DNA from: Synechococcales cyanobacterium S06
GTDB taxonomy: Bacteria > Cyanobacteriota > Cyanobacteriia > Cyanobacteriales > JAABRE01
NCBI GenBank assembly: GCA_011391125.1
Contig: JAABRE010000025.1
Span: forward strand, 1-59,114
Reading direction: 5' to 3'
Length of the DNA stretch: 59,114 bases
The notes below the pieces were generated by a model. That model worked only from the letters and a program-made list of their open reading frames with translations, had not been told where the DNA came from and did not search any database. Of the stretch, positions 37,374-47,440 are shown piece by piece. How positions within the stretch are numbered: position 1 is the first letter of the stretch; every line of letters begins with the position of its first letter. A program made the translations under genes and the position numbers.

Positions 37374-37643
37374 TTAAAATTGAGCGATTACTTCATCAGA
37401 TTCACTATTAGAACCAATCCAAAACCAAATTACAGTGTCACCATCTTTAATACCAACTGCTCTATAATTTAAACCAATTCTAACAGAATAAATGGGTTTT
37501 ATTGAGTGAATTTGTTTAAATTTTAAACTAGGATTATAGGGGTCTTTTTGGCAAATTTGGTAAGCTTTTTTCGCTACTTCTTGAATAGATTGAGGTAATT
37601 TATCGTAATATTTCCAAAATTTAGGAGTCGTTTCTGATGTCAT
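37374..37643 (-). CDS. RelE/ParE-like toxin
   Basis: The 89-residue protein has the RelE-fold pattern: a basic N-terminal helix pair (PKFWKYYDKLPQSIQEVAKKA), then LKFKQIHSIKPIYSVRIGLNYRAVGIKDGD and VIWFWIGSNSESDE. In this family the protein is an mRNA interferase or a gyrase poison. It overlaps the antitoxin gene by one base and lies downstream of it, the usual order. The pair follows hypB directly on the same strand. Confidence 0.85.
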   Translation of the reverse strand: MTSETTPKFWKYYDKLPQSIQEVAKKAYQICQKDPYNPSLKFKQIHSIKPIYSVRIGLNYRAVGIKDGDTVIWFWIGSNSESDEVIAQF

Positions 37644-37891: not shown

Positions 37892-38656
37892 CTAAGTAAG
37901 TAATAAATTGCGACTACGAACATTAAGATAATTATACCAATTTTCCATTCCTAAACCTTTGCGGGCCGAAACTTCAAAAATTGTCGCTTGGGGTGCTACT
38001 TTTTTAATATTAAGTAATGCTTTGTCCCGATCAAATTCGACTGCTTCGGCAATGTCCATTTTATTAACAATAACTACATCCGCAGATTTAAACATAGTCG
38101 GATATTTCAAAGGTTTATCTTCTCCTTCAGTTACTGATAGTAATACTACCCGAAAATTCTCACCCAAATCATAAGCTGCGGGACAAACTAAATTACCGAC
38201 ATTTTCAATAATTAATAAATTAATGTCTTTTAAATTAAGTTTTTGAGCTGCTTTTAAGACCATTTCTGCTTCTAAATGACAGACTGTTCCTGTGGTAATT
38301 TGGATTGCTTGGGTGTCATTAATTCTAAGTCTTTGAGCGTCATTATCTGTTTCTAAATCCCCGACAATTACGCCACATTTTAACTCATTTTGCCGGTCAG
38401 TAATTGTCCGTTGTAAAAAGGTTGTTTTTCCTGAACCCGGCGAAGATAAAACATTGACAACTAGCAGATTATGTGCTAAGAAAAAGCCCCTATTTCTCTC
38501 TGCTAAACGATCATTTTTAGCTAAAATGGATTGTCCAATTTCTATTTTTTGATGGTGATGATCATGGTCTTGATTGTGAGGATGTTCATGGTCATGATGT
38601 TCATGGGTATGAAATTTAACCTCATTTACTTCGCTACAACCGCAATTTCCACACAT
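37892..38656 (-). CDS. hypB: hydrogenase nickel-insertion GTPase HypB
   Basis: HypB uses GTP to help HypA insert nickel into the hydrogenase large subunit. The 254-residue protein has MCGNCGC at the N-terminus, a His-rich stretch (residues about 16-40) that can store nickel, the P-loop [12 protein letters not shown], and NKMDIAEAV. It follows hypA by two bases. The toxin-antitoxin pair comes next on the same strand. Confidence 0.96.
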
Positions 38657-38658
38657 AA

Positions 38659-38994
38659 TTAAGATACCTCCAATGATGTTAATTCGATTTCTTTTCCTGT
38701 AATAATTTTGGTGTGTAAATTACCACAATTTGGACATTCATAACACAAGTCTAATGGTTTAAATTCTAACTCACATTTTTGACAATAACAATTAACTGGT
38801 ACAGTTTCAATTTCTAGTGTAGCACCTTCTGCAATGGTATCTTTGGTAACTACATCAAAGGCAAAATGTAACGCTTCGGGAACTACTCCAGAAATTTCGC
38901 CAATTCTCATTTTTAACCAGTGTATTTTCCCAGCATTTTTAGCATTTTCAAGGGCAATTTCTAGGGTATTTTCAATAATACTTAGTTCGTGCAT
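38659..38994 (-). CDS. hypA: hydrogenase nickel-insertion protein HypA
   Basis: The 111-residue protein has the N-terminal nickel ligand MHELSI (His2) and the zinc site CQKCELEF and CPNCGNLH. Length is standard. It sits between hoxW and hypB and is probably part of the same transcript, giving a full set of late maturation functions for HoxH except the HypCDEF factors. Confidence 0.96.
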
Positions 38995-39072: not shown

Positions 39073-39528
39073 TTATAACGTTAAAATCATTTCCTTAATT
39101 TTTTCAAGGGCTTTTTCTTGCCCATTTTCAGTAATTTCTGAAAAATTCTCGCCAAATTCAAAGTTAATTGCGGGTATTAAAATCCAGTAACTTGTCGGTT
39201 TTTTCTCATATAATTTTTCGGTTAAATATAACAGAAATTCAGGGGAACTTGTATGACCTAAACTGTTTTTTGTGGGGTCATTTTCTAGGGTTTTAATCAT
39301 AATTTGATCCCCTCCAACCTCCCTTGATAAGGGGGGAGAAGCTGCATCAATAAAGATCACGGTGTCAAATTGAGCCATATCGTCAGCTAATTCGGGAGTA
39401 AGTTGATGAACAGGGAGCGATCGCACTCCCTGAAGTTCCCAACCAGCAACAATTTCAGCGACTTTTTGGCCTACGCCATCATCACTGCGCAATGTGTTTC
39501 CGTAACCAATAATTAGGGTCGTTTTCAT
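39073..39528 (-). CDS. hoxW: HoxW hydrogenase maturation endopeptidase
   Basis: HoxW removes a C-terminal peptide from HoxH after nickel insertion. The 151-residue protein starts at ATG 39528 with MKTTLIIGYGNTLRSDDGVGQ, the metal-binding Asp motif of the HybD/HoxW fold; upstream in-frame codons give a non-conserved extension that overlaps an inverted repeat. Further motifs are FIDAASPP and LGHTSSPEFLL. It lies between hoxH and hypA. Confidence 0.92.
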   Translation of the reverse strand: MKTTLIIGYGNTLRSDDGVGQKVAEIVAGWELQGVRSLPVHQLTPELADDMAQFDTVIFIDAASPPLSREVGGDQIMIKTLENDPTKNSLGHTSSPEFLLYLTEKLYEKKPTSYWILIPAINFEFGENFSEITENGQEKALEKIKEMILTL

Positions 39529-39645: not shown

Positions 39646-41079
39646 TTAACGGCGTTTTTCGTCAAGCAAAGTGCCATCGGGGGCAAAAAGTTGAAGTTGC
39701 AAGGGCATTTGACCGGCTGCATGGGTTGAACAACTTAAGCAAGGGTCATAACACCGAATACCAGCTTCCACCCGATTTAAAAGGCCTTCGGGAATTTCTG
39801 GCCCTTTAATATAAGATTTGGCGATTTGCGCCACAGTCTTATTCATGGCCAAATTATTGTTACCCGTTGCCACGATTAAATTAACCTTTTTAATCAAACC
39901 GTCCTTATCAACCTGGTAATGATGGAACAAAGTGCCGCGAGGAGCTTCACTAACGCCAATGCCTTCTAATTGGTTAATTCCAGCAATGGCGCGAGTTTCG
40001 CCGGTAATTAGCTCTGGTTCATCAATCATGGCTTCAATATGTTCGATCGCCGCCAGAATTTCAATCAACCGGGCATAATGATAAAAGAAAGAAGAAGTCG
40101 CCACACCACCGGCCAAATAGCGAAATTCACGCAATTCCCGATCTGCTGCGGGTGAGCCCATACTAGAACAAATATTCAGTCGTGCCAAGGGACCGACGCG
40201 ATAGATACCATCAGGATAGCCCAAAGGCTTATAATAAGGGAATTTCAGGTAAGTCCATGGCTCGACTGCTTCGCCAATATAGTCGCGGTAATTGTCTTCT
40301 TTGAGGTTATCTGCAATTATTTTGCCATTGCTATCAACAAAGCGAATGTGGCCGTCATAATGTTCCCATTCGCCATTTTCGCCAACCAAGCCCATAAATA
40401 AAGAGGGAAACTGGCCAAAAGTTTCGATTTCCCGAGAAAGCTTAAGTAAAAGCCCCTTAAACAGCTTCAAAGCAAGATTAATGGCTTCTTTTGACTCAGG
40501 AAGGCGGGATTTAATCCAATCTCGGCCTTCGATGGTTAAAGGAGAGCGAACTCCACCGGGCACAGCCCAAGCGGAGTGAATTTTGCGAGCGCCCAAAACT
40601 TCAAGAATTTGTTGGCCAAATTGTCTTAATCTAATACCAGTTCTAGCCAAATCTGGGTCTGCGGCCATTAACCCGAAAACGTTACGGGTAGCGGGATCGC
40701 TGTCCCAACCCAACAACCAATCTGGACTACTCAAGTGGAAAAATGAGAGCGCGTGGGATTGGGTAATTTGCGCCAAATTCATCATCCGGCGCAATTTTAC
40801 GGCCACCGGTGGGGGTTGCACTGCGAGGATTTTATCGCCTGTTTTTGCTGATGCCAACAAGTGACTAACAGGGCAAATTCCACAAATACGGCTGGTAATG
40901 CCGGCCATTTCATACATGGGGCGACCTTCGCAGAATTTTTCAAAACCACGAAATTCAACTACATGAAAACGGGCGTCGGATACTTCGTTATTTTCATCTA
41001 AAAAGATCGATATTTTTGCGTGACCCTCAATACGCGTTACAGGGTCGATTACTATGGTTTTTCCTTTATTTTCACTCAT
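39646..41079 (-). CDS. hoxH: bidirectional NiFe hydrogenase large subunit HoxH
   Basis: HoxH holds the NiFe active site of the NAD-linked bidirectional hydrogenase. The 477-residue protein has [10 protein letters not shown] (Cys66, Cys69) and the C-terminal DPCLSCSTH (Cys447, Cys450, His453). After His453 a 24-residue peptide remains, the part that HoxW removes. It stands after the CBS-CP12 gene, with a MITE-like element between, and before hoxW. Confidence 0.98.
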
Positions 41080-41285: not shown

Positions 41286-41906
41286 CTAACCGCTGCACCA
41301 GTTTTCTAACATCAACGCATCCGTTGCTTCGGGATTGTCTTCGCAGTATTCTTCAAGGGCTGTTTTTTCCAGTTTTTCCCCTTGTTGGTGTGCTATCTCA
41401 ACCTGCAAGTCTTCTACAGCTTGCCAAGCTAAACGACATTCCTCGGTGAAACCCTGTTCTTGACACAATTTGATGGCATGGGCGACAGCTTTTTCGATTT
41501 CTGCTTCAAATAAACTGGTTTTGTCTATCTGTTCAAAATCACTTTTTTCTAGCAGATCTCGAGCCGAAATAATGCCGAGTAATTCTTTGTTAATCACGGG
41601 AGCGCTACGAATATCGGTGTTGGCAAACAATCTGGCCACATATTCCACACCCAAGTCGGGATTAATCGTGATACAGGGCTTGGTCATTATTTCATAAACC
41701 CTGACTTCTTTGGGGTTTTGCCCAAAAGCGAGGACTTTATTGATAATGTCGCCATCGGTGAGGATTCCGTAAGGGTCTTCGGAGTGGCGACGTTCCACAA
41801 TCAGGGTACTGAGTTTTTGTTCCTTCATAATTTTGATCGCTGTCGCCACGGGGGCTGAACCCCTGATCATAACTACGTTTTTGGTCATTATCTCGGCTGC
41901 TTTCAT
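41286..41906 (-). CDS. CBS-CP12 fusion protein in the hox cluster
   Basis: The 206-residue protein has two CBS domains (about 1-62 and 68-124; VRVYEIMTKPCITINPD, APVINKELLGIISARD), which usually bind AMP, ADP or ATP. The C-terminal 70 residues match CP12: a Cys pair at 148 and 157, AWQAVEDLQVEIAHQ in place of AWDxVEELQAExxHQ, and EEYCEDNPEA with Cys188. The final ECRVYD-type end of CP12 is replaced by DALMLENWCSG, with Cys204 at a changed distance, so the second disulfide may be lost or altered. CP12 binds GAPDH and PRK in the dark. CBS-CP12 fusions are a known cyanobacterial family. The gene starts six bases after hoxY. Confidence 0.88.
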   Translation of the reverse strand: MKAAEIMTKNVVMIRGSAPVATAIKIMKEQKLSTLIVERRHSEDPYGILTDGDIINKVLAFGQNPKEVRVYEIMTKPCITINPDLGVEYVARLFANTDIRSAPVINKELLGIISARDLLEKSDFEQIDKTSLFEAEIEKAVAHAIKLCQEQGFTEECRLAWQAVEDLQVEIAHQQGEKLEKTALEEYCEDNPEATDALMLENWCSG

Positions 41907-41912
41907 CGTTTT

Positions 41913-42458
41913 TTAACCAAATTTAATCATTTCTCTGCCTTCCATCACCGGTTTTTCCCCTTGTACCAAAGGGGCGATCGCCTCTTTGATCCTTTGGGCA
42001 GATGGCGGACATCCGGGGATGTACATATCAATATCGATCACTTCGTGGAGAGGGGTAACTCGATCTAATAACACTGGTACGATACCAGGTTCGTAGGGCA
42101 ATTGGGGATTTACTTCACCTAACTCCAAATAAGCTCGTTTTAACACCGAATCCGCTTTCCCCAACATATTGCGCATGGCGGGAACGTTGGCGGTTATGGC
42201 ACAATCCCCGAAAGAAATGACAAATTTGGTTTTTTTCCTTACATTTAAGGCTATTTCGAGGTTTTCCTCATTGGCGATCGCCCCTTCAATTAAGCACACA
42301 TCCACGTTGTCTGGATATTCTTTAACATCGGCGATGGGACTGTGGACGACATCGACAAATGTGGCTAAATCAAACAGCCATTCATCTAAATCTAAAAACG
42401 ACATATGACAACCAGAACACCCCGCCAACCAAACCGTAGCCAATCTAATTTTGCTCAT
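41913..42458 (-). CDS. hoxY: bidirectional NiFe hydrogenase small subunit HoxY
   Basis: HoxY carries the proximal [4Fe-4S] cluster next to the HoxH active site. The 181-residue protein has WLAGCSGCHMSFLD (Cys14, Cys17), FGDCAIT and the final cluster ligand in IPGCPPSAQRI. This is the short form typical of NAD-linked hydrogenases. It is separated from hoxU by about 280 bases of heptamer repeats and followed closely by the CBS-CP12 gene. Confidence 0.97.
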   Translation of the reverse strand: MSKIRLATVWLAGCSGCHMSFLDLDEWLFDLATFVDVVHSPIADVKEYPDNVDVCLIEGAIANEENLEIALNVRKKTKFVISFGDCAITANVPAMRNMLGKADSVLKRAYLELGEVNPQLPYEPGIVPVLLDRVTPLHEVIDIDMYIPGCPPSAQRIKEAIAPLVQGEKPVMEGREMIKFG

Positions 42459-42479: not shown

Positions 42480-42580
42480 GTTGATAGTTGATAGTTGATA
42501 GTTGATAGTTGATAGTTGATAGTTGATAGTTGATAGTTGATAGTTGATAGTTGATAGTTGATAGTTGATAGTTGATAGTT
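42480..42580. repeat. STRR array, heptamer TTGATAG, between hoxU and hoxY
   Basis: About 14 uniform TTGATAG units run in a row, beginning some 20 bases from the hoxY start. The array does not contain the TTGACAG variant seen elsewhere. Confidence 0.92.
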
Positions 42581-42589
42581 ATGCTTATC

Positions 42590-42745
42590 AGTTATTACTT
42601 ATTACCTAAAAACCTATTACCTATTACCTATTACCTATTACCTATTACCTATTACCTATTACCTATTACCTATTACTTAAAAACCTATTACCTATTACCT
42701 ATTACCTATTACTTAAAAACCCATTACCTAAAAACCTATTACCTT
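42590..42745. repeat. STRR array, heptamer CCTATTA, reaching into hoxU
   Basis: Many units of CCTATTA are interrupted by AAAAACC and CTTAAAAA variants. The final TTACCT unit supplies the stop codon TAA and the last Arg codon of hoxU on the minus strand. It joins the TTGATAG array with about ten bases between. Confidence 0.9.
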
Positions 42746-43461
42746 GTCCATTCATGTTTATCCCTAGCTTGAACCAAAAATTCTAACTTACCACTATCTC
42801 GTTGCATTTCACTGACGGCCGAACCTTTGAAGAATAATGAACCAGTGGGGCAAGATTCCACACATTTTCCGCACTTGGTACAAGCATCCACATTACCCCA
42901 AGGTTGTTTTAAACCGGAAACAATCTGTAAATTATGCCCTCTTCCAGCCACATCCCAGACATGAGCTCCCTCGATTTCGTCACAAACTCGCACGCATCTT
43001 GTACAAAAAATGCAACGACCTTGATCTTTGCCAAAGATTTGGTGGGTTAAATCTACTTCTCGAACGGGGAAACGATACTCAAACCGAGAATGGTCCATAC
43101 CCACTTCAATTGCTAGGTCTTGCAGTTCGCAGTTACCGTTGACTACACAAACTGCACACACATGATTACCTTCTGCGAATAATAATTCAATAATCATGCG
43201 GCGATACTCATTGATTTTTTCATTGTGAGTATTTACCGTCATGCCTTCTTCCACGGGTGTTGCACAAGCCGGCACAAGGCGACTGCCTCTGTCGGTTTCC
43301 AATTCGACTAGGCACAAACGACAAGCTGCAACGTCTGAAACTCCCTCCAGATGGCACAAACGGGGAATGTGAATATTGGCATCTTTAGCAGCATCAAGGA
43401 TGGTTTCCCCTGCTCTTGCGCTGATCATTTTACCGTTAACTCTAATATATTTTACTGCCAC
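42739..43461 (-). CDS. hoxU: diaphorase subunit HoxU of the bidirectional hydrogenase
   Basis: HoxU passes electrons between the hydrogenase and the HoxEF part. The 240-residue protein has a [2Fe-2S] domain with Cys36, 47, 50 and 66, a HxxxCxxC-type site (HVCAVCVVNGNCELQ) and two [4Fe-4S] motifs (CIFCTRCVRVC; CTKCGKCVESC). The start is GTG with AAAGGAG eight bases upstream. Its stop codon is furnished by the repeat array. HoxE and HoxF, expected upstream, are absent. Confidence 0.96.
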   Translation of the reverse strand: MAVKYIRVNGKMISARAGETILDAAKDANIHIPRLCHLEGVSDVAACRLCLVELETDRGSRLVPACATPVEEGMTVNTHNEKINEYRRMIIELLFAEGNHVCAVCVVNGNCELQDLAIEVGMDHSRFEYRFPVREVDLTHQIFGKDQGRCIFCTRCVRVCDEIEGAHVWDVAGRGHNLQIVSGLKQPWGNVDACTKCGKCVESCPTGSLFFKGSAVSEMQRDSGKLEFLVQARDKHEWTR

Positions 43462-43842: not shown

Positions 43843-46800
43843 CTACTGATTATTATCTTTAATAAGTTGGTAATTACTATTTAATTGATGTTGTAATAAA
43901 ATAATAGTACAAATGCGTTTTATTATGTTATAAACCTCTTTAACCTCCTCAATTTGTAACGGTCTTCCTAATAGTTTTTCCTCCCGATAACTCAGCCATT
44001 TTTTTATTACTTGATAACCACCAATGGTATAATTCCATACATTAATTGGCACATTACTCCAGTAGGCAACTTCATTCAGATAAATGTCACAGGTTGTCTT
44101 ACCTAATTGTGCTAAGATGTCCTCTTCACTTAATTTTAATTCGCCACTACTTTGGGCGATCGCCTCTAATTCCTTGTCCGTATAATGGCGATCGATTAAT
44201 TTACCTTTACCCGGCATTGTCACATTATTCTTACCACCATGACCCCAACCGACAGTAATAGCTAATTCGCCATTTTCGGGGTTTAATTGACCACCATTAA
44301 CACGGGAAATAAGGCCGAATTTGGGCAGTTTTATGGGCAGTTCCTGACTGTTTTCTAAATTTAATAAATTAGCGATTTCTTGTCCTAATTTAGCCGAATT
44401 TACCAGTAATTCTTGGCTATTTGGTAGGGGGATGCGGGGAAAATCTTGACGAATACCATCAGCATTTTCCGTTAAATAGTCGGGAGAATAACCAACAGCT
44501 AAAGCATGATACCAAATTAGGCACGCAGTTTCTGCATTTTCATCCGGGTTTTTGAGTCCAATTTTTGTTAAATATTGTCGCGCTTTTGCTGATAAATTTG
44601 CCCTTATTTCTGTGTTAGAAAATTCCTCAGTGTTAAATAATTCTTGATGGTTTTTCTGCGATTTTTTAGGGATTTTGTGAGTAATTAAAATGGGAAAATG
44701 TCTCGCGTGACCGGACATTGAATCATAATCGCAAACTAAATTTGACCAATAAAACGGTGGACCTTCCGAATATTTATCGGCCGTATCACGAGAAATTAAA
44801 AAACAATTATGAGGAATTTTAGCTAATTGTAATAATTCCGGACTAGGCCTAGAAAACAATGGTTGAATTTCAGCATCTAAATAAGCTAAACGTAAATCAA
44901 AAGGTTTAAATGGATAAAGTTTAATCTTATTGACATCATATTTAACCTTATTTGATAATAAATTACGTCGCGTTTTCTCGGCTTTAAATTCACCCGAACT
45001 TTTCAACCAACGAGGATTAATTACAGATATTTCTAAATCATCTTTATTGGGATCAAAATAGGAAGAAAGTAATTCTAAATTTGCTTGATCTGATTTCATA
45101 ACAATTAAACTATTTCCTCTCCTTTCAATTGGTCCATTTAAAGGAGATATTTCAGATAAATCTGTTAATTTTAGCCATTCCAAATAACAAGTTGCTACCT
45201 TAGATGGTTTCAATAAATATTTATTATTTGCTTGGGGATTAATTATTTCATAACTACTTTTTAGGTCATTTTTAGCTAAACTTGCTAACAATTTTTGCTT
45301 TTTATTTACTCCCCAAAAATCCTGATAATAAATCTCTTTATGGTCAGATTTTAACTCTTTTTTGACCATTAAATTAATCGCAGTACCAACTTTAATTCCC
45401 GCACTATAGAAAGTAGTAAAAACACTAGGGTCTTTTTGACCATCAGGAGTTAAATAACCTGTTTGTCTTAAATCACCATTGAGAGAATCAATCCACATTT
45501 GATCAAAATTATTAATTAAGTATTGTCTCATAACAACAAAAGATGGACTACTTAAATAGGAAAAATTAGAGATATAACAAACAATACCTTTACCCGTACT
45601 TTCAGAAATACATCTTTCTGCTAACCTAAAAAACCTCACATATAAATCATCTAAATTGTATTTTTTTATTCCCCAATCTGTGGTTAAACCTTGCTTATAA
45701 ACCTCCACTAAACCGTCTTCTTCCGTGGGTGAAGTTTCCGCATAAGCGTTGTAGGGCGGATTTCCTAGGATTACTAAAATGGGTTTTCCCTGTTTAATTT
45801 CGTCGGCGGCTTCCCGCTCCTTATTTAACTCTGGAAACTGTAACTCTAACTGCTTAATTTTCCTTTTTGCTTCTTCATTCGGTGGCAACCAACCTGTTAA
45901 CGCATTGGTTAAATATACGCCGACTCGTTCATTTTCTTCCCGTAAAGGGACTCCTAAATCAGATAAAATTAACCCTAATTGTAGGTGAGCAATAATATAA
46001 GGAGCGGTCAAGATTTCAAAACCAAATACTCTATTTTTAGCGGCTTCTTTGACTTGACAAAGACTTAATGCACCTTCACCATTTTCCTCTAAAGTATTAG
46101 CAATATGTTGTAATACTTCGACTAAATATGCACCTGTACCACAACAAGGATCAAGAATATAAACATTTTCATTTGCTAAACCATCAGGAATTTTTAACTC
46201 CTCTTTTAAGACAGTATCGACACGATTGACCATATATTTAATAATTTCTGGAGGAGTGTACCAAACTCCCAATTCTTTGCGCAAAATTGGATCAAATGCT
46301 TCCAAAAATGGCTCATAAAAATATTGGACGGCTTCCCCTTCATTAAATTTAGTGAAAAATTCCTCTCTGTTTACTCGATTTAATGCAGCTCCTGTCCAGT
46401 CTAATACTTCAATCAAGTCTAATTGTTTAAGTTTTGATGGTCTGGCTATCTGTTCAAATAATATTTGAATCATGGGAACATGAAGATAAAAAGCGGCAGT
46501 TTTCCAGTCGAATAATCCCCCTGTAGAGACGTTGTCATTTGTAGAGACGTACCATTGTACGTCTCTACAAACAGGGGCAAGCGTCTGTTTATGCCATAAA
46601 ACCCAAGCCGAAAAAATGCCATAAAAAAGGGTTTGAATCAGGGTAGATTGAAAGAATTGATCGCCTTTTTCTCCTTCAAATTTAACTCCCAAAGCGTCTT
46701 CTAAAGCACTACGAATCTGATACAATGCTGTTAAATCTGTTTGTTGTTCTAAACGCGATTTTGCATCACGAGCATAAGAAGCTAAAAACCAGGCTAAATC

Positions 46801-47397
46801 TTGGGGTGACGCGATAAAAGCTGATTGTAACATTACCCGTTTTAAGTATTCTAAAAAACGGTTATTATCCTCCTTGACAAATGCTCTTGGATGTGCTACT
46901 TTTTGCCAAAATTCTGTCTCATTTTCGGCTAATTGATAACGTTCTAATTCAATTTTGTTACCGTTGCTATCCTGTCCAATTAAGATAAATTCCCTGTAAT
47001 TAGTAACTAGAACTTGGCGATATTTTGCCCAATATTTATTAACTTGATCACTATTTATAATCTTATTAATATCTTCTTTGGTACTTTTAATTTCAATGAC
47101 ACCACGCTCCGGAAAAATTCCTTGAAAAGGGGTATTTCCCTCACCCCCTTTCCCCCTCTCCCTAGGGGTGAGGGGGAGAGAAGAGTTAACAAATTGATTG
47201 GCCGAAAATAAACCACCGTCAGGAATTCCTGCACCTTGATTTTTCAGATTTATTACACAGCGTATTTTCGGTTTTAAAGTGTTTCCCACTTCGTTTAAAA
47301 GGGTTTCTAAACTACCATAATAAGACGTTTCTTTAACACCGGCTCCGGTGCTGTAAATTTGGTATAAATTGTTAAAATATGTCTCTAAAGGATTCAT
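43843..47397 (-). CDS. single-polypeptide restriction-modification enzyme
   Basis: From the ATG at 47397 the protein is 1184 residues. The N-terminal part has a PD-(D/E)xK-like nuclease (GIPDGGLF, then VIEIKSTKED). Next come an N6-adenine methyltransferase with DPCCGTGAYL and NPPYNAYAE, and a long C-terminal recognition part similar to type ISP/LlaBIII-like enzymes. No helicase domain is seen, so a type IIG-like system is likely. The reading frame upstream of 47397 runs into a dispersed repeat and is not used as start. Two dispersed repeats, 46517-46577 and 47138-47180, lie in frame within the gene, so they add peptide insertions but do not break it. Confidence 0.9.
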   Translation of the reverse strand: MNPLETYFNNLYQIYSTGAGVKETSYYGSLETLLNEVGNTLKPKIRCVINLKNQGAGIPDGGLFSANQFVNSSLPLTPRERGKGGEGNTPFQGIFPERGVIEIKSTKEDINKIINSDQVNKYWAKYRQVLVTNYREFILIGQDSNGNKIELERYQLAENETEFWQKVAHPRAFVKEDNNRFLEYLKRVMLQSAFIASPQDLAWFLASYARDAKSRLEQQTDLTALYQIRSALEDALGVKFEGEKGDQFFQSTLIQTLFYGIFSAWVLWHKQTLAPVCRDVQWYVSTNDNVSTGGLFDWKTAAFYLHVPMIQILFEQIARPSKLKQLDLIEVLDWTGAALNRVNREEFFTKFNEGEAVQYFYEPFLEAFDPILRKELGVWYTPPEIIKYMVNRVDTVLKEELKIPDGLANENVYILDPCCGTGAYLVEVLQHIANTLEENGEGALSLCQVKEAAKNRVFGFEILTAPYIIAHLQLGLILSDLGVPLREENERVGVYLTNALTGWLPPNEEAKRKIKQLELQFPELNKEREAADEIKQGKPILVILGNPPYNAYAETSPTEEDGLVEVYKQGLTTDWGIKKYNLDDLYVRFFRLAERCISESTGKGIVCYISNFSYLSSPSFVVMRQYLINNFDQMWIDSLNGDLRQTGYLTPDGQKDPSVFTTFYSAGIKVGTAINLMVKKELKSDHKEIYYQDFWGVNKKQKLLASLAKNDLKSSYEIINPQANNKYLLKPSKVATCYLEWLKLTDLSEISPLNGPIERRGNSLIVMKSDQANLELLSSYFDPNKDDLEISVINPRWLKSSGEFKAEKTRRNLLSNKVKYDVNKIKLYPFKPFDLRLAYLDAEIQPLFSRPSPELLQLAKIPHNCFLISRDTADKYSEGPPFYWSNLVCDYDSMSGHARHFPILITHKIPKKSQKNHQELFNTEEFSNTEIRANLSAKARQYLTKIGLKNPDENAETACLIWYHALAVGYSPDYLTENADGIRQDFPRIPLPNSQELLVNSAKLGQEIANLLNLENSQELPIKLPKFGLISRVNGGQLNPENGELAITVGWGHGGKNNVTMPGKGKLIDRHYTDKELEAIAQSSGELKLSEEDILAQLGKTTCDIYLNEVAYWSNVPINVWNYTIGGYQVIKKWLSYREEKLLGRPLQIEEVKEVYNIIKRICTIILLQHQLNSNYQLIKDNNQ
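46517..46577. repeat. GTAGAGACG-type dispersed repeat inside the restriction enzyme gene
   Basis: The stretch has CCCCTGTAGAGACG and CGTCTCTACAAACAGGGG as inverted ends with an inner GTAGAGACGTAC/GTACGTCTCTAC palindrome. It keeps the reading frame and encodes a polar segment near VCRDVQWYVSTNDNVSTGG between two conserved blocks. Confidence 0.75.
47138..47180. repeat. CCCCTCTCCC-type repeat inside the restriction enzyme gene
   Basis: The core of the dispersed repeat lies between the two nuclease motifs. On the coding strand it reads in frame as SSLPLTPRERGKGGEGN. The same repeat core occurs in intergenic sites of the window. Confidence 0.8.
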
Positions 47398-47402
47398 GAA
47401 TG

Positions 47403-47440
47403 CCCTCACCCCCAACCCCTCTCCCTCTGGGAGAGGGGAG
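47403..47440. repeat. CCCCTCTCCC-type repeat at the restriction enzyme start
   Basis: CCCTCACCCCCAACCCCTCT and GGGAGAGGGG lie immediately upstream of the start codon and take up the leader. A few codons of the longer open frame (GVRAF) are derived from this repeat, which is why the start at 47397 is preferred. Confidence 0.75.

Follow-up and report, generated by a model that had tools for sequence, protein, structure and literature searches.

Canonical CP12 uses the N-terminal half of the protein for phosphoribulokinase (PRK) (PMC9514657). Among proteins in which CP12 is fused to CBS domains, only that of Microcystis aeruginosa is reported as having been assayed for a hexamer and for an AMP-dependent effect on PRK; it binds AMP, inhibits PRK activation and forms no ternary complex (review, PMC9406205). 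The CBS-CP12 of Synechococcus PCC 7002 fails to replace CP12 in Synechocystis (PMC9514657). A CP12-N-CBS class (Stanley et al. 2013), as far as its description in PMC3906501 goes, is defined by cysteine pairs together with the core motif. The coupling of the cyanobacterial bidirectional hydrogenase with carbon fixation and energy charge is a question of biotechnological weight. Genes for CBS-CP12 reportedly lie in distinct neighbourhoods, several of them unrelated to photosynthesis, an account attributed to Hackenberg 2018, and their bare linkage to hydrogenase (hox) genes may already have been published there. In the open literature searched, which was without Hackenberg 2018 and Stanley 2013, no prior publication of the hox neighbourhood was found, nor any description of the C-terminal WCSG tail, of the CP12-less forms or of the stand-alone CP12 proteins reported below.

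A CBS-CP12 gene was identified inside a hox cluster in the window (the whole stretch of DNA analysed, 59,114 nucleotides), with the following features:

37892..38656, minus strand, hypB-like GTPase (sequence reading; gene order kept in relatives)
38659..38994, minus strand, hypA-like nickel metallochaperone (sequence reading; hoxW-hypA-hypB order kept in relatives)
39073..39525, minus strand, hoxW, hydrogenase maturation protease (TIGR00072, above cut-off)
39646..41079, minus strand, hoxH, large subunit of the hydrogenase, following the CBS-CP12 gene after 206 bp (PF00374)
41286..41906, minus strand, CBS-CP12 gene, 206 aa (open reading frame; Pfam; best solved relative 5nmu; predicted fold)
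41289..41303, minus strand, C-terminal tail NWCSG, residues 202-206 (alignment of tail-bearing relatives; pLDDT)
41307..41507, minus strand, CP12 domain, residues 134-200, with N-terminal cysteine pair C148/C157 and core AWQAVEDL (PF02672)
41544..41906, minus strand, tandem CBS domains, approximately residues 1-121 (PF00571)
41913..42458, minus strand, hoxY, small subunit of the hydrogenase, separated by 6 bp from the CBS-CP12 gene that follows (PF01058)
42739..43461, minus strand, hoxU, diaphorase subunit (NCBIfam NF005745, above cut-off)

The original prediction, made from the sequence, was of a gene between hoxY and hoxH encoding two CBS domains and a CP12-like domain, and this was borne out using Pfam. 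The CBS profile matched in two stretches (89.6 bits), and the CP12 profile, failure of which had been named as grounds for abandoning the idea, matched residues 134-200 strongly, with 70.1 bits where the cut-off is 22.7. The closest solved relative was the Microcystis CBS-CP12 5nmu (E 1.6e-65), and a monomer model (AlphaFold, pLDDT 88) gave the CBS-CP12 hexamer entries 5nvd, 5npl and 5nmu as its top Foldseek matches, with E 3.6e-22 to 5nvd for the monomer model. Both nucleotide motifs of the CBS pair were found to be intact (GxxTxxD, G47 to D53, and GxxSxxD, G111 to D117), with G47, D53, G111 and D117 invariant across 62 aligned relatives. With its CBS pair, CP12 domain and fold, the window protein is a member of the CBS-CP12 fusion family. 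Elsewhere, the same genome encodes a canonical CP12 of 74 aa and a second CBS-CP12 unlinked to hox.

The 6-bp gap to hoxY suggests that the two genes are co-transcribed. HoxH of the window is 83% identical to that of a Prochloron sp. (G394), and hoxF of the same genome was located on a different contig. The spacer between hoxU and hoxY is 280 bp long and rich in repeats, being filled by heptamer tandem repeats (window 42480-42580 and 42593-42744) with 14 exact copies of GTTGATA followed by TATTACC units. A type ISP restriction-modification protein is encoded upstream of hoxU (window 43843-47415, minus strand), and a ParE-like toxin gene lies downstream of hypB (window 37374-37643, minus strand).

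Recurrence of this arrangement was examined in 244 genomes sampled evenly from the order to which the source genome belongs, among which 130 were positive for HoxH and 165 for the window protein, and 128 hox loci were read. A CBS or CBS-CP12 gene was found directly upstream of hoxH on the same strand (hereafter the slot) at 29 of these loci, spread over nine families (sixteen in f6, four in f12, three in f10 and one each in f1, f5, f11, f17, f51 and f52), against a chance expectation of approximately 0.05. The adjacency, which the original prediction allowed might be confined to this genome, thus recurs in many. In 26 of the 29 loci the gene lies between hoxY and hoxH, with no adjoining hoxY found at the other three (L185, L195, L210). 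At L210 (G533), HoxH is broken by stops and the CBS gene directly upstream is intact. Five further loci (f49, f55) carry a CBS or CBS-CP12 gene after hoxW or hypAB. As the majority of hox clusters in the sample are without a slot gene, such a gene is not required for the hydrogenase in general.

Named genomes with an occupied slot include Prochloron, Picosynechococcus PCC 7117 and Nostoc linckia, and Roseofilum carries a CBS-CP12 gene in a downstream position. Searches gave no confirmation of SYNPCC7002_A0199 as a slot gene. In Anabaena 7120, alr0765 is numbered directly after hoxY (alr0764) and listed only as a hypothetical protein (PMC4915528); judged from the Nostocaceae type of slot, it would be a CBS-CP12 gene. 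Other orders yielded seven loci with a CBS-type slot protein (f18, f22, f24, f26, f56) and three with CP12 alone, in genomes that were chosen for a profile match and so give no rate. In Acaryochloris 'Moss Beach', an annotated plasmid has the order hoxE-hoxF-(x-x)-hoxU-hoxY-CBS-x-x-CBS-CP12-hoxH-hypC, its CBS-CP12 terminating in WCSG. A tree of HoxH from 141 loci required 10 changes in slot occupancy, at least five of them forced by supported branches, and the arrangement is therefore either ancient with frequent loss or repeatedly gained. Altogether, the hox linkage of CBS-CP12 is co-directional and recurs in at least 14 families, and because it is real, co-directional and recurrent, a functional tie between CBS-CP12 and the hydrogenase genes is well supported.

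The occupants of the slot were found to be of several types. CBS-CP12 proteins occur with the WCSG tail and, in the 16 members of f6, without it. CBS proteins with an invariant WCSG tail and no CP12 were identified in G415, G498, G530 and G533, with one CBS-CP12 gene intervening before hoxH in G498. CBS proteins with a degenerate CP12 and the ending LCSG were seen in G669 (21.3 bits, under the Pfam cut-off) and G657 (by sequence), and tail-less proteins with half of a CP12 in G680 (21.7 bits) and G656 (by sequence), as well as in an extra protein of G684 (22.2 bits); CBS scores remain at 82-96 bits in these slot proteins. Stand-alone CP12 lies between hoxY and hoxH in G675, G659 and G163 (L308, L309, L312; families f26 and f18), in each case with the N-terminal cysteine pair present and the C-terminal pair absent. 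Two further genomes have a PRK-family gene in this position (L098:8467-9498 in G475 and L111:8546-9538 in G434), whose solved relatives include archaeal and cyanobacterial PRKs and a 'cyanobacteria specific phosphoribulokinase'; in one of the two, a CBS-CP12 gene adjoins hoxW.

Other genes were also noted at these sites. A staphylococcal-nuclease-like protein recurs in the gap between hoxY and hoxH (L090, L091, L092, L093, L096, L138) and stands beside an unlinked WCSG CBS-CP12 at L217. An ORF of 573 aa, read from its sequence as group II intron maturase-like, separates hoxY from CBS-CP12 at L242:2502-4223 (G446) and at L071.

The cysteines of CP12 were compared across the family. The N-terminal pair was present in all 18 slot members with an intact CP12 and in all 20 tail-bearing members with CP12. 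The second C-terminal cysteine was found in none of 25 hox-linked proteins versus 14 of 58 other CBS-CP12 proteins; in the window protein C188 is present, its partner position 197 is Ala, and there is accordingly no C-terminal, GAPDH-side pair. With one pair kept and the other absent, the hox type has the PRK half of CP12 and is without the GAPDH half. An altered C-terminal GAPDH loop had been proposed in the original prediction on the grounds that the last CP12 cysteine, Cys204, was displaced. The effect stood and the explanation did not, since Cys204 belongs to the separate WCSG tail. Fifteen residues lie between Cys188 and Cys204, and the two are no shifted pair, because the tail cysteine is invariant in tail-bearing relatives, of which only 7 of 20 keep Cys188. 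The core motif differs as well: 61 of 63 tail-less members retain the Asp of AWD_VEEL, versus 5 of 20 tail-bearing ones, and in the window protein, whose core reads AWQAVEDL, Gln takes its place. Its loss in 15 of 20 tail-bearing members may weaken PRK binding.

The reading tentatively preferred here is that the hox-operon branch of CBS-CP12 senses adenylates and thiols, is made along with the hydrogenase and restrains PRK. What is observed is the domain content, the intact nucleotide motifs, the PRK-side cysteine pair kept with the GAPDH-side pair absent, and the recurrent slot. From the motifs, the two CBS domains are predicted to sense adenylates (AMP versus ATP), and the N-terminal half of CP12 would sense thiol redox state through its cysteine pair. 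Placement inside hox would have the protein made together with the hydrogenase, under dark, micro-oxic and fermentative conditions. At high AMP and with oxidised thiols, PRK, the probable target, would be restrained, and carbon fixation would be kept from competing with the fermentative disposal of NAD(P)H via hydrogenase; no classical GAPDH-CP12-PRK scaffold would be formed. Co-expression, AMP binding, the PRK target and the physiological role of the hox-linked protein are all inferred, as is the originally proposed coupling of Calvin-cycle control to hydrogenase activity or the use of NAD(P)H. The recurrent slot before hoxH, the cysteine pattern, the PRK inhibition described for the Microcystis homologue, the PRK-family gene in the slot of two genomes and the stand-alone slot CP12 in three argue for PRK restraint. 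Against it count the loss of the AWD Asp, the hoxU-hoxY spacer, the origin of the assayed biochemistry in the Microcystis protein, and the loss of all or half of CP12 in slot proteins of several lineages, which makes CP12 dispensable there.

This last observation fits better with direct action on the hydrogenase, in which a CBS sensor contacts HoxYH or the diaphorase through the flexible WCSG tail or a CBS surface and gates activity or maturation by energy charge, with CP12 as an optional add-on. The reading is unlikely on present evidence, though it ranks next. The tailed CBS-only proteins upstream of hoxH and the proteins whose CP12 is degenerate or halved while CBS scores hold are consistent with it, whereas filling of the same slot by stand-alone CP12 in three genomes, and the want of a tail in the 16 f6 members, are not. 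A second hoxU copy also points this way: in Hydrococcus rivularis (L042:5259-6624) an isolated hoxU is followed directly by a WCSG CBS-CP12. The complete hoxU-Y-H cluster, on a different contig, has none.

The tail itself was examined further. All 19 aligned tail-bearing relatives share an unchanged WCSG, and residues 201-206 of the window protein are predicted to be disordered (pLDDT <50). Endings outside the order vary (WCAG, ACSG, LCGG). Among ORFs longer than 42 aa at approximately 240 loci, all those ending in WCSG were CBS or CBS-CP12 proteins; a whole-genome search for the DNA pattern gave many matches, but the extra ones fetched were not real ORF ends, and WCSG as a tag common to unrelated proteins was rejected. 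When the tail columns were left out of tree building, the window protein fell in a supported set (97/88) whose 16 rows all bear the tail. A single clade of all tail-bearing proteins was rejected (AU p 5e-8), while one clade of tail-bearing proteins, Nostocaceae slot members and L070 was not (AU p 0.28).

Within the order sample and among the matches listed, 19 of 20 tail-bearing genomes had HoxH, compared with 111 of the 224 remaining ones (p 7e-5 with no correction for kinship), which favours direct action. Set against this are tail-bearing proteins in G497 and in HoxH-less Nostocales genomes (Calothrix, Dulcicalothrix, Richelia). Nor did the tail hold up as a marker of hox linkage in its own right: the raw Fisher p for the slot was 0.0005, but the four independent tree pairs usable after kinship correction gave no signal. 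The tail thus tracks hox by clade and not as independent events, a clade trait travelling with hox that is no proof of hydrogenase contact. A broader proposal, that the tailed CBS sensors form a new class of hydrogenase regulator, binding the NiFe hydrogenase or a maturation form of it and gating it by energy charge while a detachable CP12 simultaneously throttles PRK, is considered less likely than direct action alone.

Shared expression only, whereby the gene belongs to a dark or micro-oxic regulon and its product works on something else, such as targets of thioredoxin or further enzymes under adenylate control, is improbable and ranks third, after PRK restraint tied to hydrogenase expression and direct action. 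Many CBS-CP12 genes are distant from hox, and the neighbours of some tailed proteins, named by reading their sequences, would suit such a regulon: hcp beside the non-linked tail-bearing L008, and universal stress proteins near the tail-bearing L067 and L073 and the close relative L070. Against this, the site immediately before hoxH is favoured over the rest of the region, time and again and across many families. A thioredoxin gene within 3 kb accompanies 11 of 48 tail-less unlinked CBS-CP12 genes versus none of 38 hox-linked or tail-bearing ones, so that a TrxA neighbourhood was rejected for the hox-linked members, and TrxA-linked members form a clade separate from the hox kind. The assayed Microcystis protein is presumably of the TrxA-linked kind, and carrying its biochemistry over to the hox kind is hence an extrapolation. 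An ordinary CP12 scaffold joining GAPDH and PRK and lying in hox by chance is, despite the strong CP12 profile match, highly improbable, given the absent C-terminal cysteine pair, the canonical CP12 and unlinked CBS-CP12 already carried by the genome, the failure of the PCC 7002 protein to substitute for CP12 in Synechocystis (PMC9514657) and the recurrence of the slot, which excludes chance placement.

Since a sensor of Calvin-cycle ancestry is repeatedly held before hoxH, a link between carbon fixation and hydrogen metabolism becomes directly testable, and the modularity of the slot (CBS-CP12, CBS alone, CP12 alone) makes the role of each part separable in natural variants.

Comparison with known systems places the window protein as follows. 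Adenylate sensors with two CBS domains (AcuB, hypoxic response protein 1 and similar) share the fold of the CBS pair (Foldseek) but have no CP12 and no link to hox; AcuB carries an ACT domain. Canonical CP12, such as the 74-aa protein of this genome, shares the N-terminal cysteine pair, the AW..VE core and PF02672, whereas the window protein differs in its CBS fusion, its want of a C-terminal cysteine pair and the change of the AWD Asp to Gln. The CP12-N-CBS class, as far as PMC3906501 describes it, likewise combines a CBS fusion with a CP12 bearing only the N-terminal cysteine pair, and the WCSG tail and hox slot set the window protein apart from that description. Closest is the Microcystis aeruginosa CBS-CP12 (5nmu/5npl/5nvd), with 59-60% identity over the aligned structure, two CBS domains and a CP12, equal length and AMP motifs kept. 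The aligned Microcystis sequence has an ordinary C-terminal CP12 end with no WCSG tail; the window protein, by contrast, lies in hox, is tailed, has the core AWQAVEDL and belongs to a supported tail-bearing clade.
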